The notes beneath the pieces are model-generated. The model did no database searches, had not been told where the DNA came from, and saw only the letters and a program-made list of their open reading frames with translations. Position numbers and translations under genes: made by a program. From a virus, in the IMG/VR virus record IMGVR_UViG_3300037315_000041, positions 1 through 42,104 of that record: a DNA stretch of 42,104 bases; one strand, 5' to 3'. Below are positions 628 through 28,244 of the stretch, piece after piece. The stretch's first letter is position 1; the number at the start of each line of letters is the position of its first letter.

Positions 628-897
628 ATGACTATAAATATACCAATAACTACCGATAGCCTTATGATTGTCGGTTTACTAGTATTCGCTGCAATACTTA
701 TCCTAAGAGAGTTCCAAGTACGAAAGATGGAGGCCGAAGTCTTTAAGCAGAAACAGGAGCTTCTACAGATGGCGATGTTTCTAGCTGCTACTAGACCTAC
801 AACTGCTAACAAAAACGAAAAAGAAAGAGAAGAAGAGACAAGGTTAGTTCAACTGGTGACTAATCCTATACTAAATGGAGGGAAGTATGAAATATAA
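628..897 (+). CDS. Small single-pass membrane protein with coiled coil
   Basis: 89 residues. A hydrophobic segment at about residues 12-27 (LMIVGLLVFAAILIL) is followed by a charged, heptad-like stretch (about 28-50) and a very charged EKEREEE region near residue 70. The start follows GGAGG (618-622) with a 5-nt spacer. The layout, one N-terminal anchor plus a cytoplasmic or periplasmic coiled coil, resembles small phage lysis or membrane-tether proteins, but no family is recognised. Its 3' end overlaps the next gene. Confidence 0.7.
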   Translation: MTINIPITTDSLMIVGLLVFAAILILREFQVRKMEAEVFKQKQELLQMAMFLAATRPTTANKNEKEREEETRLVQLVTNPILNGGKYEI

Positions 898-1144
898 CAT
901 TCCAGGATACGGAGAGATTACAGTTCCAGACACCGTGCTGAGTCTTCCAAGTGACGAGGCTATTAGACAGGGAATCCTAGACGCTATGACTCCCGAAGCT
1001 GTGGAGGCTCTCCACGAAGCACGGGCTAACTCACCTCGCGTTAGCGGCGGATTCGACGGTACGGTAGTCGGCAGCGAAACAGATACGACTACGGCGGGGA
1101 AGGCCGTAGACTCAGTATGGGACTATATCTTTAGGAATATGTGA
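887..1144 (+). CDS. Small hypothetical protein
   Basis: 85 residues from the ATG at 887, chosen because GGAGGG (877-882) sits just before it; an in-frame ATG at 875 would overlap that site. The protein begins MKYNIPGYGEITVPD and contains an amphipathic middle part (EAIRQGILDAMTPEAVEALHEA) and a low-complexity Thr/Gly-rich stretch. It overlaps the previous gene by 11 nt, so the two are translationally linked. Last gene before a strong terminator. Function unknown. Confidence 0.65.
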   Translation: MKYNIPGYGEITVPDTVLSLPSDEAIRQGILDAMTPEAVEALHEARANSPRVSGGFDGTVVGSETDTTTAGKAVDSVWDYIFRNM

Positions 1145-1180
1145 GTTTTCCCCCTTTCTGAAACATAGCCTTTTAATCTG

Positions 1181-1227
1181 AAACATAGCCTTGACCCCAT
1201 TACAATGGGGTCAAGGCTATGTTTTTT
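1181..1227 (+). terminator. Rho-independent terminator
   Basis: Perfect hairpin of about 20 bp: arm 1181-1201 (AAACATAGCCTTGACCCCAT...) pairs with 1204-1224, followed by a run of T (1222-1227). It ends the transcript of the genes at 628-1144. The sequence CTGAAACATAGCC at the foot of the hairpin is also present about 20 nt upstream as a direct repeat (from about 1159). Confidence 0.92.
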
Positions 1228-1238
1228 AATTAACGGCG

Positions 1239-1267
1239 TTGGCAAAAACATCAAGATATGCTATAAT
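1239..1267 (+). promoter_or_regulatory. Sigma-70-like promoter for the resolvase operon
   Basis: TTGGCA (1239-1244) and TATAAT (1262-1267) with a 17-nt spacer, placed between a terminator and the GTG start at 1300. The -35 differs from TTGACA at one base. Expected start of transcription is near 1274. Confidence 0.82.
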
Positions 1268-1299
1268 ACACTTGTCCGCAGAAAGAGAGGAGAGAAGAA

Positions 1300-1770
1300 G
1301 TGCAAGAAGGCGATAAAATTCTAGCCATAGACCCTGGTAAAACCACGGGCTATGCCGTGGCAGTTGTAGTAGACACAAGGAACTACAACGGATATGAACT
1401 ACTACAAGCTGGACATATAGAGTGGACTCGCCGAGTACAGGATTTTCAATCTCTCCTCAGCGGATGTATAGGGACGGGACATCTCTACTTAGTAGTAGAG
1501 GAGTTCCGTCTCTATGCACATAAAGCGGAGGCTCAAATTGGTAACGAGTTTCCGTCTGTACGGTTTATTGGAATGGCAGAAACTTTATGGTATTTAGTTG
1601 GCCTGAACGAAGAAGATATAAGGTATCAACAGGCAGTACTACGTAAGAGTGCCGAAATCCCTAAGAGAGATAAGAATAAACTCACGGGAAAAAGGCACGC
1701 TCAGGATGCTTATAAACATCTGAGATACTTCTTTATTGTTCAGGCTAAGAAGAAAGGAAACAAGCGGTGA
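1300..1770 (+). CDS. RuvC-like Holliday junction resolvase
   Basis: 156 residues with a GTG start after AGAGGAGAGAAGAA. RNase H-fold signature: strand 1 with the first acidic residue in ILAIDPGKTTGYA (Asp11), second acid in LVVEEF (Glu67/68) and the C-terminal HxxD pair in KRHAQDAYKHL (His133, Asp136). This matches the catalytic layout of RuvC-type endonucleases, which cut four-way DNA junctions in a metal-dependent reaction. Many phages carry a short RuvC-like resolvase to debranch DNA before packaging. First gene of the operon. Assignment to the superfamily is good; substrate specificity is inferred. Confidence 0.82.
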   Translation: MQEGDKILAIDPGKTTGYAVAVVVDTRNYNGYELLQAGHIEWTRRVQDFQSLLSGCIGTGHLYLVVEEFRLYAHKAEAQIGNEFPSVRFIGMAETLWYLVGLNEEDIRYQQAVLRKSAEIPKRDKNKLTGKRHAQDAYKHLRYFFIVQAKKKGNKR

Positions 1771-2120
1771 TGAAGGTACTAAACTTCGCTCATCCGATAA
1801 CGGAGAGCCAGCTAACGGAATTAGCAACACTTCTCTATGAGGAGGTAGAATTTTTAGACGTAGTGGACATCTCTGTGCAGATTGATTTCCGCCAAGACAT
1901 CAAGGAGCAGATAGACCAAATCCTAAATAACTGCTCCGTGGAATGGGACGCAGAGGACTACGTCGTTAGGCTGCCTGGTATGAGCTTCGCTGCGGCTATG
2001 ATAGTCGTAGAGATTTATAAGCGTTCCGAATTCTTTCCACAAATCATTATCCTTACACGAGACGAGACATCTGCGGTTCCTGCATTTTACGTAAAAGAAG
2101 TAGTTGATTTGGAGGGTTAG
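1770..2120 (+). CDS. csx15: Csx15-like protein (type III CRISPR ancillary family)
   Basis: 116 residues. The start is ATG 1770 (a GTG at 1767 is equally possible), overlapping the TGA of the resolvase gene. The N-terminus KVLNFAHPIT, the middle LPGMSFAAAMIVVEIY, and the end FFPQIIILTRD...FYVKEVVDLEG follow the pattern I remember for Csx15 (LLNFSHPLT ... NPPG.APAA.L..E ... FP.I.R.R ... F.V.EI.NL). Csx15 is a small family found beside type III CRISPR loci, where cyclic oligoadenylate signals are made. A phage copy could act as an antagonist of that signalling. Family match is from memory; function is inference. Confidence 0.6.
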   Translation: MKVLNFAHPITESQLTELATLLYEEVEFLDVVDISVQIDFRQDIKEQIDQILNNCSVEWDAEDYVVRLPGMSFAAAMIVVEIYKRSEFFPQIIILTRDETSAVPAFYVKEVVDLEG

Positions 2121-2121
2121 A

Positions 2122-2388
2122 ATGTCAACGACAACGACTTACGACAAAATAGAGCAAGTTCTAACGGCGTACTTGGAGTCTCTCTTAGAAGAAATTGCAG
2201 AAGAGGGAGAAGAGTACGACGGCCCATATAACTACGACGAGATAGCTATTACTCTGGGGGAGATGAGTAACAGGGGAGACTTAGGTATATGGGATGTGTT
2301 CGCTGACCTAGAGATGAATGGAGGATTTACCTTCCGTGAGCTACGGGAGTTGATGCACATTATCGTAGAGCGAGCGAAGCAACTGTAA
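2122..2388 (+). CDS. Small acidic hypothetical protein
   Basis: 88 residues from ATG 2122, preceded by GGAGGG (2111-2116) with a 5-nt spacer; the in-frame ATG at 2104 lies upstream of that site and is less likely. Predicted mostly helical, very acidic in the first half (LLEEIAEEGEEYDGPYN), ending in a helix with LRELMHIIVERAKQL. Starts one base after the stop of the Csx15-like gene, so it is co-translated with it and might be a partner. No family recognised. Confidence 0.7.
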   Translation: MSTTTTYDKIEQVLTAYLESLLEEIAEEGEEYDGPYNYDEIAITLGEMSNRGDLGIWDVFADLEMNGGFTFRELRELMHIIVERAKQL

Positions 2389-2645
2389 TGGGTATTACAC
2401 AAGATATAAACGAAGACGGGAAATACAAGAGAAAAGACCTACACGTCTGGGAAGAATACGGTTTTTGGTACGCTTGTATTTCAGGGCTTACGTATGACGG
2501 CCTCTACTTTGAGAGTGAAGATATGGGGCCTATGCCCTCTCTCGCAGAAGCGGTAGACTACGGACTGCTAGTAGAAGACGGGGATGTAGACGTAGAGTAC
2601 GTCTACGACTTTGGTAGCAATAGTGAATGGATAATGGTTTATTGA
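2388..2645 (+). CDS. Hypothetical protein, HicB-like fold possible
   Basis: 85 residues; ATG shares one base with the preceding TAA. Tyr/Asp-rich and probably beta-alpha: VWEEYGFWYACISGLTYDGLYFES followed by SLAEAVDYGLLV. The pattern (an edge strand, a loop, then SLAEAV helix) recalls small HicB/UPF0150-like domains that read ...GLTYDG...SLAEA..., but no toxin partner HicA is seen next to it. Last gene before the hairpin region at 2644. Confidence in the fold is low. Confidence 0.65.
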   Translation: MGITQDINEDGKYKRKDLHVWEEYGFWYACISGLTYDGLYFESEDMGPMPSLAEAVDYGLLVEDGDVDVEYVYDFGSNSEWIMVY

Positions 2646-2709
2646 AAAAACACGAGAGGAGAAGCAAGCTTCTCCTCTCGTGTCTGGTACAGCTAGTACC
2701 ACCTAAGAA
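2644..2709 (+). ncRNA. Hammerhead ribozyme relic lacking the catalytic core
   Basis: A 15-bp hairpin (2650-2664 with 2669-2683, loop CAAG) is followed by C2684 and a second hairpin UGGUAC-AGCUA-GUACCA (2685-2701). These occupy the places of stem III, the cleavage-site C17 and stem I of the intact hammerheads of this window, with GAAA just 5'. Then the sequence jumps to CCUAAGAAAG where intact copies read CUGAUGAGACUUAGAAAG, so most of CUGAUGAGACU is missing. It should not self-cleave, but may work as a paired hairpin terminator or mRNA-end protector. Confidence 0.7.
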
Positions 2710-2724
2710 AGAAAGAGGGAGTAA

Positions 2725-3597
2725 ATGATTAAGCAACTAGAACTAGTAGCTTTTGACGGCGGTAACGGTACAGCGGCCATCAAGACGGAAAACGGTGAGT
2801 GGACAATGCCAGCGGTAGGACGTAAACTACAGACAGCAGGCAGAGTTAGGCCCTACAAGCATACGTACACCTTTGGAGATGGGGATAAGTGGTTGCTAGG
2901 CGACCCAGACGACCCGCGAGACACCGCAGCACAGATAGGGAATATTCCAGACCGTTACTACAACGGAACTACGCTGCGTTTCCTTTTGGCGTTACTTCGT
3001 AAATCTTGTCCAAACGAGACGAGCATAGAGATAGAGGAGTTGGGTATGTGTCTACCTCAATCTGTGTATAGCGACACGAGTAACGACGTTAAGATTTACG
3101 ATTGTTTTGAGAGAGAACACGTTGTCACTGGAACTAAGGTTAAAATAGAGAGTGTTCGTCTTTATGGGGAGGGAGAGGTAGCTTTATACGCTCTGCCTCA
3201 GTATATACGCGAAGCAAACACCCTTATTATAGATATTGGATTTAGTACGACAGATGTCGTATTAGCAGATAAGGGGAGCGTAGAGGCAAGGAAAGTGCTG
3301 TCCTATCCATTAGGTATAGGGGAATTACTCGCTGATAGGAAAAAAATAGTAGCGAATCCTAAGCACTACGCAAACAGATACGAGGTACAGATAGAAGCAG
3401 AGCAGCTAGTATCTGACCTGAACAGAAAATACAGTAAAGGTCAAATTGACTACGTAGTAGTCATAGGCGGAGGAGCATATATCTACGGAGAGGCTATAAA
3501 GGAATATGGGGAAAGCTTTCGTGGGGTATTACAGAACGCTCAATGGCTAAATGTAACTGACCCTGAGTTACTAAACCTTAGAGGGATGTATGCTTAG
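2725..3597 (+). CDS. Actin-like ATPase (ParM/Alp type), intact motifs
   Basis: 290 residues. Actin-fold nucleotide-binding motifs are all present: phosphate-1 loop VAFDGGNGTAAIK (8-20), phosphate-2 loop LIIDIGFSTTDVVL (167-180), and the adenosine motif VVVIGGGAYIYGEA (244-257). The C-terminus NLRGMYA is the usual ParM-like end. Such proteins polymerise with ATP to push or position DNA. No ribbon-helix-helix adaptor gene lies next to it, unlike the cassette at 27148. Its start follows AAGAAAGAGGG. A diverged tandem paralogue lies 30 nt downstream. Confidence 0.83.
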   Translation: MIKQLELVAFDGGNGTAAIKTENGEWTMPAVGRKLQTAGRVRPYKHTYTFGDGDKWLLGDPDDPRDTAAQIGNIPDRYYNGTTLRFLLALLRKSCPNETSIEIEELGMCLPQSVYSDTSNDVKIYDCFEREHVVTGTKVKIESVRLYGEGEVALYALPQYIREANTLIIDIGFSTTDVVLADKGSVEARKVLSYPLGIGELLADRKKIVANPKHYANRYEVQIEAEQLVSDLNRKYSKGQIDYVVVIGGGAYIYGEAIKEYGESFRGVLQNAQWLNVTDPELLNLRGMYA

Positions 3598-3627: not shown

Positions 3628-4416
3628 ATGACTAAATACCTAAAATTAGTAGCTTTTGATGGAGGGAGCGGTACAGCGTTTATTAAGACGGAAGACGGGG
3701 AGATAGGAATGCCAGCGGTAGGGCATAAACTATCAGGGAGTAACGTCTATACACTTCCGAACGCGGAGAAATGGCGTCTAGGGTATGAGGAGTCCCGCGA
3801 AGAGGCAACACGGTTCTACGACGGAACTACTCGCAAGTTCTTTCTTGCTCTATTAAGTAAACAGTACTCAGACGCTCTTAGGGTAGAGATAGAAATTCTC
3901 GGTATATGTTTACCTATTTCAGTTTTTATGAAGTACGAATACGATAGTATGATTAAGGAATGTTTTCTCGGTAAACATATCGTGAACGGTATCGTGGTCA
4001 TAGTAAACCGCGTAGTGTTGTATGGTGAGGGGGATGTAGTAACGTTCGAGCCGAGCACTTCTACTCTCATCATAGACGTTGACTACGATAAGACTGATAG
4101 TGTTATCTCTACGGAGAGAGGAGCACGTATTAGTACATACTACTCGTGTGTCATTGGAGTAAACGATTTAGTTAAATCTGTAGTCACGGACAGAATACTC
4201 CTACAGGAGTTAATTGATAAAATAGCAGCAAGGTACAGAGAGGAGCGAATTGACTCCATTGTACTCGTAGGGGAGGGAGCATATCTCTTACAAGAAGTTA
4301 TTAAACAATGTTTAGAATCTTCAAGTCTTAGTAGCTTGAAGCTTCTGGTTCCTCTGGAACCAGAGAAAGCGCATCTGCGAGGTACCTGGCACGATTTACA
4401 GCTTTTTAATGAATAA
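3628..4416 (+). CDS. Actin-like paralogue with degenerate nucleotide motifs
   Basis: 262 residues, clearly a duplicate of the gene at 2725 (shared LKLVAFDGG.GTA.IKTE, YDGTTRKFFLALL, LYGEG.V). The phosphate-1 loop is kept (FDGGSGTAFIK, 10-20), but the phosphate-2 glycine is lost (IIDVDYDKTD instead of IIDIGFSTTD) and the adenosine motif is VLVGEGAYLL instead of VVIGGGAYIY. About 28 residues are also missing. It may no longer hydrolyse ATP and could act as a capping or regulatory subunit of the first actin. Start follows AAGAAAGAGGTAGGG. Confidence 0.8.
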   Translation: MTKYLKLVAFDGGSGTAFIKTEDGEIGMPAVGHKLSGSNVYTLPNAEKWRLGYEESREEATRFYDGTTRKFFLALLSKQYSDALRVEIEILGICLPISVFMKYEYDSMIKECFLGKHIVNGIVVIVNRVVLYGEGDVVTFEPSTSTLIIDVDYDKTDSVISTERGARISTYYSCVIGVNDLVKSVVTDRILLQELIDKIAARYREERIDSIVLVGEGAYLLQEVIKQCLESSSLSSLKLLVPLEPEKAHLRGTWHDLQLFNE

Positions 4417-4419
4417 GAT

Positions 4420-4481
4420 AGTCGAAACACGAGAAGCCTTACCACTTCCCGTGTCTACCGCGTAGCGGTACTGATGAGACT
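4420..4481 (+). ncRNA. Type II hammerhead ribozyme 1
   Basis: Stem II is open: AGUC (4420-4423) pairs with GACU (4478-4481). Core GAA (4424-4426), stem III ACACGAGAAG with CUUCCCGUGU (one A/C mismatch), cleavage nucleotide C4455, stem I UACCGC-GUA-GCGGUA, core CUGAUGA (4471-4477). Predicted cut between 4455 and 4456. It begins three bases after the stop of the actin paralogue and ends 20 nt before the next start. Confidence 0.9.
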
Positions 4482-4803: not shown

Positions 4804-4865
4804 AGTCGAAACGTGGAGAGCCTTACCACTCCACGTCTACCACAAATAGCGGTACTGATGAGACT
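4804..4865 (+). ncRNA. Type II hammerhead ribozyme 2
   Basis: AGUC (4804-4807) pairs with GACU (4862-4865). Stem III is ACGUGGAG/CUCCACGU (8 bp, different bases from hammerhead 1 but fully paired), C17 at 4837, stem I UACCAC-AAAUA-GCGGUA with one mismatch, core CUGAUGA (4855-4861). Predicted cut 4837/4838. Starts two bases after the upstream stop codon. Confidence 0.9.
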
Positions 4866-4885: not shown

Positions 4886-5467
4886 ATGAAGATTTTCACA
4901 GTTGGTAACGGTACGGTTGAAGAGGGAGCAACGGTTAATACAGTTACAATCAAGTCTGCTGACGTTCAAATCCCTGCTATTTGTGTAGGAGAAGAAGGAC
5001 GCGGCCGAAAGCTTTCCTATATCCCCATTAGTGGGGTTAGTGAACAGAAATGGGTAACGAATGTAAAGTTGGGTGAAACCCGAACGGGTAAGCCTAAGTT
5101 TAGGGCTATTACACTAGAAACCGATACAGATACGGAGGAATGTGTAATCGTATTCCTCCATACTGCGGGCTACCGTGGTAGAGCAGGCGTAACGGGAGAT
5201 ATACGTGAGGACTTAGACTGGGGGACACGGTCTCTCAATTTCCCTGGTAAAATATTAGTTGAAGGAGCAATCGCTCAGGGAGCAGCAGGACGGGCGGGGG
5301 GAAATCCCCAATATATCGCTAAGCTGAAAAAAGGCGATGTATTCCGTATTGCCCGTGGGGGGAGGTTGTACGGAAACCCATCAAACTACTTCGGTTGCTT
5401 TGATGGAGAAAAAGTTATTCTCGTTACTTGGAAGGAACGAGAAGCCCTAGACCTGTGGTTTGACTAA
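4886..5467 (+). CDS. Hypothetical protein, duplicated gene copy 1
   Basis: 193 residues, Gly/Val-rich and probably all-beta. Paralogue of the gene at 5593 (both start MKIFTVGNGT and end EREALDLWFD or DREALDLWFD; shared ICVGE.GRGRKL.YIPI, IAQGAAGR.GGN.QYIA, RLYGNPS.Y.GCFD-type blocks). No known family recognised. The repeated Gly-rich turns and the FPGKIL.EG motif suggest a compact beta-fold. It is preceded by hammerhead 2 with ribosome site AAAGGAG and followed by a truncated tRNA-Leu copy. Confidence 0.72.
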   Translation: MKIFTVGNGTVEEGATVNTVTIKSADVQIPAICVGEEGRGRKLSYIPISGVSEQKWVTNVKLGETRTGKPKFRAITLETDTDTEECVIVFLHTAGYRGRAGVTGDIREDLDWGTRSLNFPGKILVEGAIAQGAAGRAGGNPQYIAKLKKGDVFRIARGGRLYGNPSNYFGCFDGEKVILVTWKEREALDLWFD

Positions 5468-5592: not shown

Positions 5593-6186
5593 ATGAAAAT
5601 ATTTACGGTAGGAAACGGTACAGCTAAACTAGGAGCGAAGGTATCTATTGTCGGGAATAACGTAGAGATATTTGCTATCTGCGTAGGAGAAGTAGGACGT
5701 GGGCGGAAACTAGGGTATATTCCAATCGGAGGAATACCCAATACGACAACTGTAACAACAAACGTTGTAATAACAAACGTTGTTATAAGTCAAACTCGAA
5801 TTGGATTTCCTAAGTTTACGGCCATTACGCCAGAAACCGATACAGGCACAGGCACGGAGGAATGCGTAGTCGTATTCCGTCACACTGGTGGCTTTCGTGG
5901 CGGCGCGGAACTAACAGGTGACAGAGTTGACTTCGATAATCCTGCCCTGTTTCGCGACTTTCCTGGGAAAATTCTACAGGAGGGAATAATTGCACAAGGT
6001 GCTGCGGGCCGAATGGGAGGAAACTCTCAGTATATTGCCCGCATTCGGAGAGGGCAAGTATTCCGAATTAAACGTTGGGGAAAGTTATATGGAAATCCGT
6101 CCTCTTATTATGGATGTTTCGACGACGGGAAGATTACTCTCGTCACTTGGGAAGACAGAGAAGCCCTAGACCTGTGGTTTGACTAA
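5593..6186 (+). CDS. Hypothetical protein, duplicated gene copy 2
   Basis: 197 residues, paralogue of the gene at 4886. It differs mainly by a short insertion rich in Thr/Asn/Val (TTTVTTNVVITNVVI) that contains a small internal repeat. Preceded by AAGGAGGG. As with copy 1, a tRNA-Leu sequence follows it, here intact, so gene plus tRNA were duplicated as one unit. The function is unknown; retention of both copies with divergence suggests different partners or targets. Confidence 0.72.
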   Translation: MKIFTVGNGTAKLGAKVSIVGNNVEIFAICVGEVGRGRKLGYIPIGGIPNTTTVTTNVVITNVVISQTRIGFPKFTAITPETDTGTGTEECVVVFRHTGGFRGGAELTGDRVDFDNPALFRDFPGKILQEGIIAQGAAGRMGGNSQYIARIRRGQVFRIKRWGKLYGNPSSYYGCFDDGKITLVTWEDREALDLWFD

Positions 6187-6194
6187 GGGAATAT

Positions 6195-6280
6195 GGGGAT
6201 ATGGCGGAATGGCATACGCGGTAGTCTTAAAAACTACTGAGAGTAATCTCATACGGGTTCAAGTCCCGTTATCCCCACCA
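6195..6280 (+). tRNA. tRNA-Leu(UAA), CCA encoded
   Basis: Acceptor stem GGGGAUA (6195-6201) pairs with UAUCCCC (6270-6276), discriminator A6277 and genomic CCA 6278-6280. The anticodon stem GUAGU/ACUAC holds loop CUUAAAA with anticodon UAA. A long variable arm (GAGA-GUAA-UCUC) and T arm ACGGG-UUCAAGU-CCCGU complete a class II leucine tRNA reading UUA. It probably supplements host decoding. Confidence 0.96.
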
Positions 6281-6297
6281 CTAGTTAAGGGAGGAAT

Positions 6298-6534
6298 ATG
6301 ATAGAACTGATTAGAAAACACTATAGAGGTACAGGCAAACGAGTTGTAGGGCATAAGATGTTAGAGGGGAGTGTTTTTGTGTATACCCTATCAGAACTAA
6401 AGAGTTTTTATGGGTATTACGCTCCTAAAAATAGAGATAGTGAGGAATATCACTTTGGTTGCGGCTTCTCGTGTGCAGGAGAAGCACTAGAGGCCCTGAG
6501 ATATGTACGCAAGATAGAGAGGTTTAACAAGTGA
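6298..6534 (+). CDS. Small tandem paralogue 1 of 3
   Basis: 78 residues starting after GGGAGG. Shares with the next two genes the block YGYYAPKNRDSEEYHFGCGF and a C-terminal helix with basic residues (LRYVRKIERFNK). The Cys in FGCGF and Tyr-rich surroundings are kept in copy 2. No family is recognised. The three genes overlap head to tail and are translationally coupled. Confidence 0.7.
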   Translation: MIELIRKHYRGTGKRVVGHKMLEGSVFVYTLSELKSFYGYYAPKNRDSEEYHFGCGFSCAGEALEALRYVRKIERFNK

Positions 6535-21653: not shown

Positions 21654-21719
21654 AGTCGAAACGTAGAGAGAACCTTGCTCCTCTCTACGTCTGTCGCAGA
21701 TAGCGGCACTGATGAGACT
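21654..21719 (+). ncRNA. Type II hammerhead ribozyme 3
   Basis: AGUC (21654-21657) pairs with GACU (21716-21719). Stem III ACGUAGAGAG/CUCUCUACGU (10 bp, loop AACCUUGCUC), C17 at 21691, stem I UGUCGC-AGAUA-GCGGCA with one G-U pair, core CUGAUGA (21709-21715). Predicted cut 21691/21692. Confidence 0.93.
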
Positions 21720-22159: not shown

Positions 22160-22223
22160 AGTCGAAACGTAGAGAGCCTTGCCACTCTCTACGTCTGTCG
22201 CAGATAGCGGCACTGATGAGACT
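22160..22223 (+). ncRNA. Type II hammerhead ribozyme 4
   Basis: AGUC (22160-22163) pairs with GACU (22220-22223). Stem III ACGUAGAGAG/CUCUCUACGU with loop CCUUGCCA, C17 at 22195, stem I UGUCGC-AGAUA-GCGGCA, core CUGAUGA (22213-22219). Predicted cut 22195/22196. Confidence 0.93.
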
Positions 22224-22780: not shown

Positions 22781-22844
22781 AGTCGAAACGTAGAGAGCCT
22801 TGCCACTCTCTACGTCTGCCGCAGATAGCGGCACTGATGAGACT
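22781..22844 (+). ncRNA. Type II hammerhead ribozyme 5
   Basis: AGUC (22781-22784) pairs with GACU (22841-22844). Stem III as in hammerhead 4, C17 at 22816, stem I UGCCGC-AGAUA-GCGGCA, so the G-U pair of hammerheads 3 and 4 is here G-C. Core CUGAUGA (22834-22840). Predicted cut 22816/22817. Confidence 0.93.
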
Positions 22845-24514: not shown

Positions 24515-24578
24515 AGTCGAAACGTAGAGAGCCTTGCCACTCTCTACGTCTGCCGCAACTAGCGGCACTGAAGAGACT
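24515..24578 (+). ncRNA. Type II hammerhead ribozyme 6 (CUGAAGA core)
   Basis: AGUC (24515-24518) pairs with GACU (24575-24578). Stem III ACGUAGAGAG/CUCUCUACGU, C17 at 24550, stem I UGCCGC-AACUA-GCGGCA. The core reads CUGAAGA (24568-24574), changed only at position 7, the one free position of CUGANGA. Predicted cut 24550/24551. Confidence 0.92.
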
Positions 24579-24713: not shown

Positions 24714-24777
24714 AGTCGAAACACGAGAAGCCTTGCTACTTCTCGTGTCTGCCGCAACTAGCGGCACTGATGAGACT
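24714..24777 (+). ncRNA. Type II hammerhead ribozyme 7
   Basis: AGUC (24714-24717) pairs with GACU (24774-24777). Stem III ACACGAGAAG/CUUCUCGUGU is fully paired and like that of hammerhead 1 rather than its neighbours; stem I UGCCGC-AACUA-GCGGCA is like hammerhead 6. C17 at 24749, core CUGAUGA (24767-24773). Predicted cut 24749/24750. Confidence 0.93.
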
Positions 24778-26687: not shown

Positions 26688-26699
26688 ATGTCAAAAATA

Positions 26700-27060
26700 A
26701 AAACTAACAGAAATTATAGTTTTTGTTAAACTTAAAAACTAACAGAAATTATAGTTTCTGTTAGTTATTAAAAATTGGTAGAAATTATAGTTTTTGTTAA
26801 TTGTTAAAACTAACAGAAATTATAGATATAGTAATTTTCTGTTAGTTCTGTTAGTTTTCAGTAGTTTTCATTAGTTTTCAGTAATTTTTGTTACTTTTTT
26901 GAATAATTATACACATTTTTTGTCGAACACTACCAAATTTTACTGGTTTTCAGCGATTTTGTAAGTTTTTGTTAGTTTTTGTTAGTTTCTGTTAGTTTCT
27001 GTTAGTTTTTAGTAGTTTTTAGTAAATAATACAATTTTTCTGATTATAGTTTTTGTTATG
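26700..27060 (+). repeat. AT-rich iteron region, centromere-like site of the ParM cassette
   Basis: ACTAACAGAAATTATAG occurs three times exactly (26703-26719, 26738-26754, 26809-26825) with a diverged copy near 26777. The complementary motif GTTAGTTTTT/GTTAGTTTCT is repeated many times, densely at 26840-26880 and 26965-27020. It is the only gene-free stretch over 300 nt (26633-27147). Its position directly upstream of a ribbon-helix-helix gene and an actin-like gene matches a type II partition centromere (parC). Confidence 0.8.
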
Positions 27061-27147: not shown

Positions 27148-27387
27148 ATGAGAAAGTCATCGAAGAAAGTGACGCGAGTGTCTAGGAGTATCAGCGTACC
27201 AGAATCAATAGACGAGTTAGTCATGGAACTAGCAGAAGAATGGGGAGGGATAACTGTATCTGCGATGTATACTGCTGTTATTACACGCGGTATACAAGCA
27301 CTACAGCAAAACCCCGCTAACTTACAAGTTCCTGGTACCAGTCCTGGCGGGGAGTGGGGAGGTACAGAATGGGGAGGTATAGAATGA
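27148..27387 (+). CDS. Ribbon-helix-helix protein, ParR-like adaptor
   Basis: 79 residues. VTRVSRSISVPESIDELVMELAEEW is a typical strand-helix of the MetJ/Arc/CopG type with a second helix ITVSAMYTAVITRGIQAL. The tail is Pro/Gly-rich (TSPGGEWGGTEWGG), a flexible end that in ParR-type adaptors contacts the actin. Start after GGGAG. Likely binds the repeats upstream. Confidence 0.82.
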   Translation: MRKSSKKVTRVSRSISVPESIDELVMELAEEWGGITVSAMYTAVITRGIQALQQNPANLQVPGTSPGGEWGGTEWGGIE

Positions 27388-28244
27388 GAATAGAAGTCTC
27401 GTTTGACCCTGGAAACGGCGTGTCATCTATCTACGACGGGAAGAATATGTACCATAGTATCTCCGCTTCTGGAAGAGTTCCTATGGGAGGACTACATATA
27501 CCAGACCGTCAAGTCTTAAAGATAAGACAAGACGGTAGGTACACGTTCGGGCCGACTGCACTAAAAGAGGCTCAGGGCCGATTACCCTCTCTAGGAGCAG
27601 AGGGTAGATACTACGATGGGTTTACCAGAAGGATGCTACTGTCCTTACTACATACTCACTATAGTGGTCAAGAAGTAGACTTGGCTACTATGCTACCGAT
27701 TCATTATTATAACGATAAAAACATTAGAACGAAGGTGAAAGAGTCTTTTATCGGGAGTCACCAGATAGAAGATAAACAGTTCACTATCAAAAACGTAACC
27801 ATAAAGCCCGAAGGGGTTACGGCTCTTGGGCTACTTATACCAGAAAGTGATACTTCGTTTTTAATAATTGACTGTGGTCAATTTACTACGAACGTAATTA
27901 GTGTATTCGACAAATCGGTAGCTCCTGACTCCTCTTTCTCTATTCCTATAGGAGTAGAAAGAATCGTTGAACTGGTACGGGAGTCTCAGGAGTGTAACTA
28001 TATGTTTGCACGAAAAACAGTTCGTAAACGGGAGTGTAAAGACGAAGAGACGTTTGCTGGTAAAGAGATACGCAACGCTCTCCAATCCAGACTACGTACC
28101 GCTGACAAATACGACCGACTAGTGGTCGTTGGTGGCGGTTCTTATTATTTCACGGAGTACTTGGAAGGATTTGCCTATCAAAGAATTCCAGTAAATGAGC
28201 CAGAGTACGCGAACGTGAAAGGTTTACATGCACTCACGTTTTAG
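27384..28244 (+). CDS. Actin-like ATPase, ParM-like
   Basis: 286 residues from ATG 27384, which overlaps the adaptor stop (ATGA) and has GGGGAGG six bases upstream; the in-frame ATG codons at 27354 and 27369 are within a duplicated ATGGGGAGGTAYAGA and are less likely. Motifs: phosphate-1 SFDPGNGVSSI (6-16), phosphate-2 LIIDCGQFTTNVI (160-172), adenosine VVVGGGSYYF (247-256). Forms filaments that would separate plasmid-like phage genomes. Confidence 0.87.
   Translation: MRIEVSFDPGNGVSSIYDGKNMYHSISASGRVPMGGLHIPDRQVLKIRQDGRYTFGPTALKEAQGRLPSLGAEGRYYDGFTRRMLLSLLHTHYSGQEVDLATMLPIHYYNDKNIRTKVKESFIGSHQIEDKQFTIKNVTIKPEGVTALGLLIPESDTSFLIIDCGQFTTNVISVFDKSVAPDSSFSIPIGVERIVELVRESQECNYMFARKTVRKRECKDEETFAGKEIRNALQSRLRTADKYDRLVVVGGGSYYFTEYLEGFAYQRIPVNEPEYANVKGLHALTF

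Follow-up and report, generated by a model that had tools for sequence, protein, structure and literature searches.

Do phages carry Csx15, and what would such a copy do for them? This question was raised by a gene at positions 1770-2120 (+ strand) of the IMG/VR virus record IMGVR_UViG_3300037315_000041, of which we analysed a stretch of 42,104 nucleotides, referred to here as the window. Csx15 was characterised in April 2026, in the only biochemical study of the family, as a dimeric member of the CARF superfamily that forms head-to-tail stacks of dimers around cA4; PfCsx15 acts as a cA4-specific sponge, and CliCsx15, a slow ring nuclease, neutralises immunity driven by cA4 in E. coli (PMC13148439). 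The same study classes about 25% of the Csx15 found in cells as orphans and suggests dampening as the cellular role of the protein. It also states that phage genomes lack Csx15, uses this absence to argue that the family may not serve as an anti-CRISPR, and remarks that sponging is perhaps not a good way to counter type III signalling (PMC13148439).

Profile comparison places the window protein in the Csx15 family beyond doubt. The NCBIfam model NF040560 (CAS_Csx15) matched it with 76.7 bits (E 1.8e-21), far above the curated cut-off of 35 bits, over profile positions 2-115 of 125, and the PADLOC Csx15 model matched it as well (E 1.2e-12). The NF040560 score also ruled out a chance open reading frame at 1770-2120. 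Pfam returned no family up to E 10, and the PHROG scan gave a weak match alone (E 0.03). The initial annotation had called a Csx15-like protein from three motifs, LNFAHPIT, PGMSFAAA and FPQIIILTRD...VKEVVDL, and all three align with true Csx15; what it overlooked is that the last 10 profile positions, which form the arginine tail, have no counterpart in the window protein. The reading frame is intact and encodes 116 amino acids from the ATG at 1770, or 117 from an alternative GTG at 1767, beginning with MKVLNFAHPITE and ending in VVDLEG directly before the stop codon. The product is very acidic (pI 4.14, net charge -14), while ten other family members ranged from -5 to +1 in the same measurement, and this acidity is not common to its nearest relative, the Csx15 of viral contig L065 (9 K+R, 11 D+E).

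An AlphaFold2 model, built on an alignment that included the two phage relatives found first, was confident (pLDDT 89.1, pTM 0.80) and showed the secondary structure order β-α-β-α-β-α-β-β, with five strands and a terminal β4-β5 hairpin. The predicted fold thus fits the five-stranded CARF-like fold described for Csx15. An earlier model, built on a shallow alignment, had a low pLDDT (61.7), and its fold search was disregarded. In Foldseek searches with the confident model, no PDB entry matched under E 0.001, but CARF and ring-nuclease structures recurred among the top matches and lend weak support to the predicted fold; a viral model, A0A1S5Y369 from an uncultured archaeal virus, matched at E 9.8e-4. 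By sequence, the best PDB match was the Csx15-like domain of CbCash (PDB 9ylu, E 1.2e-4).

The window is a genuine tailed phage. It encodes tail proteins (tape measure, Dit-like and minor tail proteins), a polymerase A with an N-terminal uracil-DNA-glycosylase domain, a D5-type primase, an SNF2 helicase, a dUTPase, a PD-(D/E)XK nuclease, a Sak4-like annealing protein and primase families, and it carries a tRNA-Leu. The phage setting claimed for the gene was therefore borne out, as was the claimed lack of cas genes: no protein in the window matched Cas10 (Csm1-type profile TIGR02578), the 25 best-ranking PADLOC families reported for the 45 window proteins included no cas model besides Csx15, and repeat searches of the window returned no CRISPR array. 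Linkage to a type III CRISPR locus, a feature of the family, is accordingly not seen for this csx15, which lies on a phage contig that gave no Cas10 match. No integrase was found among the genes identified in the window.

Within this phage, csx15 is probably the second gene of a four-gene operon (1300-2645, + strand). A strong intrinsic terminator with a 20-pair stem (1181..1224, +) lies upstream of the operon, and a putative sigma-70-like promoter, TTGGCA-17-TATAAT (1239..1267, +), recognised by consensus match only, precedes it; the promoter agrees with the consensus at 11 of 12 positions, and a TG stands before its second hexamer. The first gene (1300..1770, +) encodes a RuvC/Holliday-resolvase-like phage protein according to its sequence and its PHROG matches, which comprise two families of unknown function (phrog_1981, E 6.8e-7; phrog_5202, E 1e-6) and the resolvase family phrog_1770 at E 0.07. 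Its stop codon overlaps the csx15 start, and the two genes are likely to be translationally coupled. Directly 3' of csx15 follows a small, very acidic protein (2122..2388, +; about -13 charges per 100 amino acids) and then another small protein, putatively the last of the operon (2388..2645, +); for neither did Pfam, NCBIfam, PADLOC and PHROG scans return a family.

Several other elements of the window were recorded alongside. Three ParM/actin-like genes are present (2725-3597, 3628-4416 and 27354-28244), of which two, the first and the third, have matches in the PHROG partition family and the second, without a PHROG match, is a clear sequence paralogue of the first. An A/T-rich array of TTTTxGTTAGT-type decamer repeats at 26698-27046 is possibly a replication or partition site. 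Seven hammerhead-ribozyme-like elements lie between genes on the + strand (4420-4481, 4804-4865, 21654-21719, 22160-22223, 22781-22844, 24515-24577 and 24714-24777) and follow a type-II pattern, AGTCGAAAC ... GTC|T ... CTGATGAGACT, which has six exact matches in the window and none in 100 shuffles; the copy at 24515-24577 has a variant core. Against Rfam RF02276 the elements score 19-20 bits, under the threshold of 37, and two copies fold with z of about -4. A duplicated gene (MKIFTVGNG...; 4886-5467 and 5593-6186), not assigned to a family, has a homologue (36% identical) at 5813-6487 of viral contig L037; there, too, some 2 kb separate it from csx15.

Having placed csx15 on a phage, we looked at how far the family extends among viruses. 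Searches with mixed alignments recovered it on six further viral contigs (L037, L038, L049, L050, L065 and L067), and all six proteins exceed the NF040560 family cut-off. Phage terminase genes are present on every one of these six, several of which also carry portal, capsid, baseplate or tape-measure genes; together with the tail and replication genes of the window, this ruled out host contamination. Among all seven records, which are metagenomic and may be fragments, none gave a Cas10 match and two contain integrases; the lack of Cas10 argues against these copies belonging to type III loci that the phages carry. On L050 a baseplate gene is found some 1.8 kb away from csx15. On L049, genes for a C5-cytosine and an N6/N4 DNA methyltransferase are found at 797-3374, shortly upstream of csx15, which lies within 1.6-4.2 kb of both, and such surroundings are a usual neighbourhood for counter-defence genes. 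Other searches came back empty: single-sequence scans of the viral contigs (with the window protein, CliCsx15, the cellular Csx15 protein of L032 and the phage DNA polymerase), a two-sequence alignment search of the same contigs, a plasmid search with three Csx15 queries, and tblastn against 50,697 GenBank phages with the window protein, the CbCash domain, CliCsx15 and the L032 domain. The published negative for phages is explained by the fact that the copies sit in uncultivated viruses, as the GenBank phages were likewise negative in our hands. That phages do carry Csx15 is a stronger general result than any function assigned to the window copy.

In cells, we found Csx15 in Chlorobiota and allied genomes, in a comparison sample that consists mostly of Chlorobiota. 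One cellular protein, L032, is a fusion of a Schlafen AlbA_2 domain to Csx15, and its Csx15 part is similar in sequence to the PDB chain of CbCash. Both L032 and CbCash hold their Csx15 domain inside a larger effector-like protein, unlike the stand-alone window copy, and no cas genes adjoin the Schlafen AlbA_2-Csx15 gene (L032 901-1881; L073 8523-9419).

What the phage copies could do depends on which binding-site residues they have kept. In the crystal-based model of PfCsx15, the bottom dimer contributes S9 and H11 to the cA4 site and the top dimer H82, R116, R120 and R123; H11A abolishes binding and R123A weakens it, and in CliCsx15 H13A abolishes cleavage and H90A abolishes cA4-induced oligomerisation (PMC13148439). 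In our alignment, five phage copies (L037, L038, L049, L050 and L067) have the complete published residue set, in the form of NF[SAG]HP, ELHGR, RLR and an RD-x-AR tail. The Motif-I histidine (H11 in Pf, H13 in Cli) is present in 7 of 7 phage copies, although Motif I is one residue shorter in the window and other phage proteins (N-F-A-H-P) than in Csx15 (N-F-S-G-H-P). The window protein retains this motif as N5-F6-x-H8-P9 (LNFAHP) along with R85, F106 and E110, and the F/Y flanking the adenine is kept as well. It differs at the second conserved histidine (H82 in Pf, H90 in Cli; ELHGR), where it has Y83 (EIYKR), at the RLR arginines, which are I94 and T96, and at the C-terminal arginines (R116, R120 and R123 in Pf), before which the protein ends. 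Since the second histidine and the arginine tail are both published conserved features of the family, we filed the window protein as a divergent variant. L032 shares the short Motif I with the window protein but retains H90 and the arginine tail.

The Csx15 of L065, 34-35% identical to that of the window, likewise lacks the H90 equivalent, the RLR arginines and the arginine tail. The tree joins the two proteins as sisters (97/92), a grouping that may be partly an artefact, as both branches are long, and by their shared residues they form a short, tail-less subtype of phage Csx15. On L065, a peptide resembling the Csx15 tail (NLQTLRDQ, 5847-5900) lies out of frame 12 bases behind the csx15 stop, where it begins the next open reading frame, and it ranks first among 27,622 six-frame positions at the locus. 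It suggests that the short form arose through loss of the tail. Its score alone is not proof, as shown by a chance match of the window that scores higher. Behind the stop of the window gene, no such read-through tail was found: the downstream frame scores 5.6, compared with 18.1 for the best chance site in the window.

Given its lineage, its place on a phage that lacks cas genes and what has been published on the activity of the family, the leading explanation for the window protein is that it counters cA4-signalling type III CRISPR defence through binding and not catalysis; we give this roughly an even chance. The short phage Csx15, a CARF-like protein predicted to bind cyclic oligoadenylates, would be made by the phage and would sequester the signal or dock on Csx15-type sensor surfaces, so that cA4-driven type III immunity would be blunted to the benefit of the phage. 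We infer action on cA4 signalling, binding without cleavage and benefit to the phage as the most likely course. Conservation of the Motif-I histidine in all seven phage copies, a residue that is catalytic in CliCsx15 and essential for binding in PfCsx15, supports this explanation. The blocking of the host signal that the initial annotation proposed by analogy to AcrIII-1 is therefore supported at the level of the family, through the published activities of CliCsx15 and PfCsx15, but the AcrIII-1-like ring-nuclease mechanism does not carry over well: H90 is needed for normal CliCsx15 activity, and with Y83 in its place and no arginine tail, catalysis by the window copy is unlikely. Whether it would bind cA4 is uncertain, as the loss of H90, RLR and tail together with its acidity should weaken binding of a tetra-anion, which counts against the explanation. 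The role of a classic cA4 sponge, or of a slow ring nuclease, would fit the five full-length phage copies better than the window copy.

Known viral antagonists offer a partial parallel. AcrIII-1 (Crn2, DUF1874) resembles the window protein in the proposed phage role of removing the cA4 signal but is a fast in-line ring nuclease of unrelated fold and sequence, and the window protein matched no Pfam family, DUF1874 included, up to E 10. AcrIII-1 itself is disputed as a natural anti-CRISPR in a Nature 2025 paper, as cited in PMC12751052. In AcrIII-2, a virus carries a cellular type of cA4-binding module as a separate protein, which encloses cA4 in a head-to-tail sandwich (PMC12751052), and the window protein would at most work in a similar way; AcrIII-2 differs in being a viral SAVED ring nuclease of 230 amino acids with demonstrated cA4 cleavage (PMC12751052).

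The main rivals to counter-defence start from the same losses. H90, RLR and the arginine tail are gone from both long-branch sisters, and the window protein is extremely acidic, as might be expected if cA4 binding had been lost and the CARF-like scaffold had taken on a new ligand or partner, be it a different cyclic nucleotide or a protein of phage or host. We consider this unlikely, though likelier than the other rivals: the Motif-I HP persists in both proteins, the family score of the window protein is well above the cut-off, nothing positive points to another ligand, and the grouping of the long branches is perhaps partly artefactual. The missing key residues could also mark a former full-length phage Csx15 that is losing its active site and tail and decaying without function, and the out-of-frame tail-like peptide just behind the L065 stop resembles a recent breakage. 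Decay has only a slim chance of being right, given that the window frame is intact, overlaps the upstream stop and belongs to a compact operon that has a promoter and a terminator, that similarity runs along its whole length, and that the L065 sister is an open frame too.

The losses are one-sided in both short copies and fall on one of the two faces of the cA4 sandwich: the bottom face with its Motif-I histidine is kept, and the top face with H90 and the arginines is lost, as assigned by the published bottom-dimer and top-dimer model (PMC13148439). For this reason, a capping mode is conceivable, in which a protein that cannot form filaments itself could cap filaments of host Csx15 or of Schlafen-Csx15 effectors. 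The cellular Schlafen AlbA_2 fusion and the close sequence match to CbCash speak for the existence of such partners; the pattern comes from two sequences, though, and the Schlafen-Csx15 gene found does not adjoin cas genes, and we regard capping as improbable. The more specific proposal that the protein acts as an anti-CRISPR by docking on Csx15-domain proteins of the host, at the top face with its bound cA4, and halting filament growth, we rate slightly lower still. A similarly small probability falls to a regulator that protects the host, in which a phage or prophage copy would dampen stray cA4 signalling and spare the infected cell or lysogen. This would extend the dampening role suggested for cells (PMC13148439) and agrees with the integrases in two of the seven records, but the genes identified in the window include no integrase, its own polymerase, primase and Sak4 suggest a lytic life, and the distinction from an anti-CRISPR is partly semantic.

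For the family as a whole, the argument drawn from its published absence in phages falls away: seven viral contigs carry Csx15, in at least five cases with an intact binding site, and these phage copies can be taken up directly as candidates for another family of proteins that counter type III defence. Lacking one half of the binding site, the short form yields a clear prediction on how filament-forming cA4 binders work.
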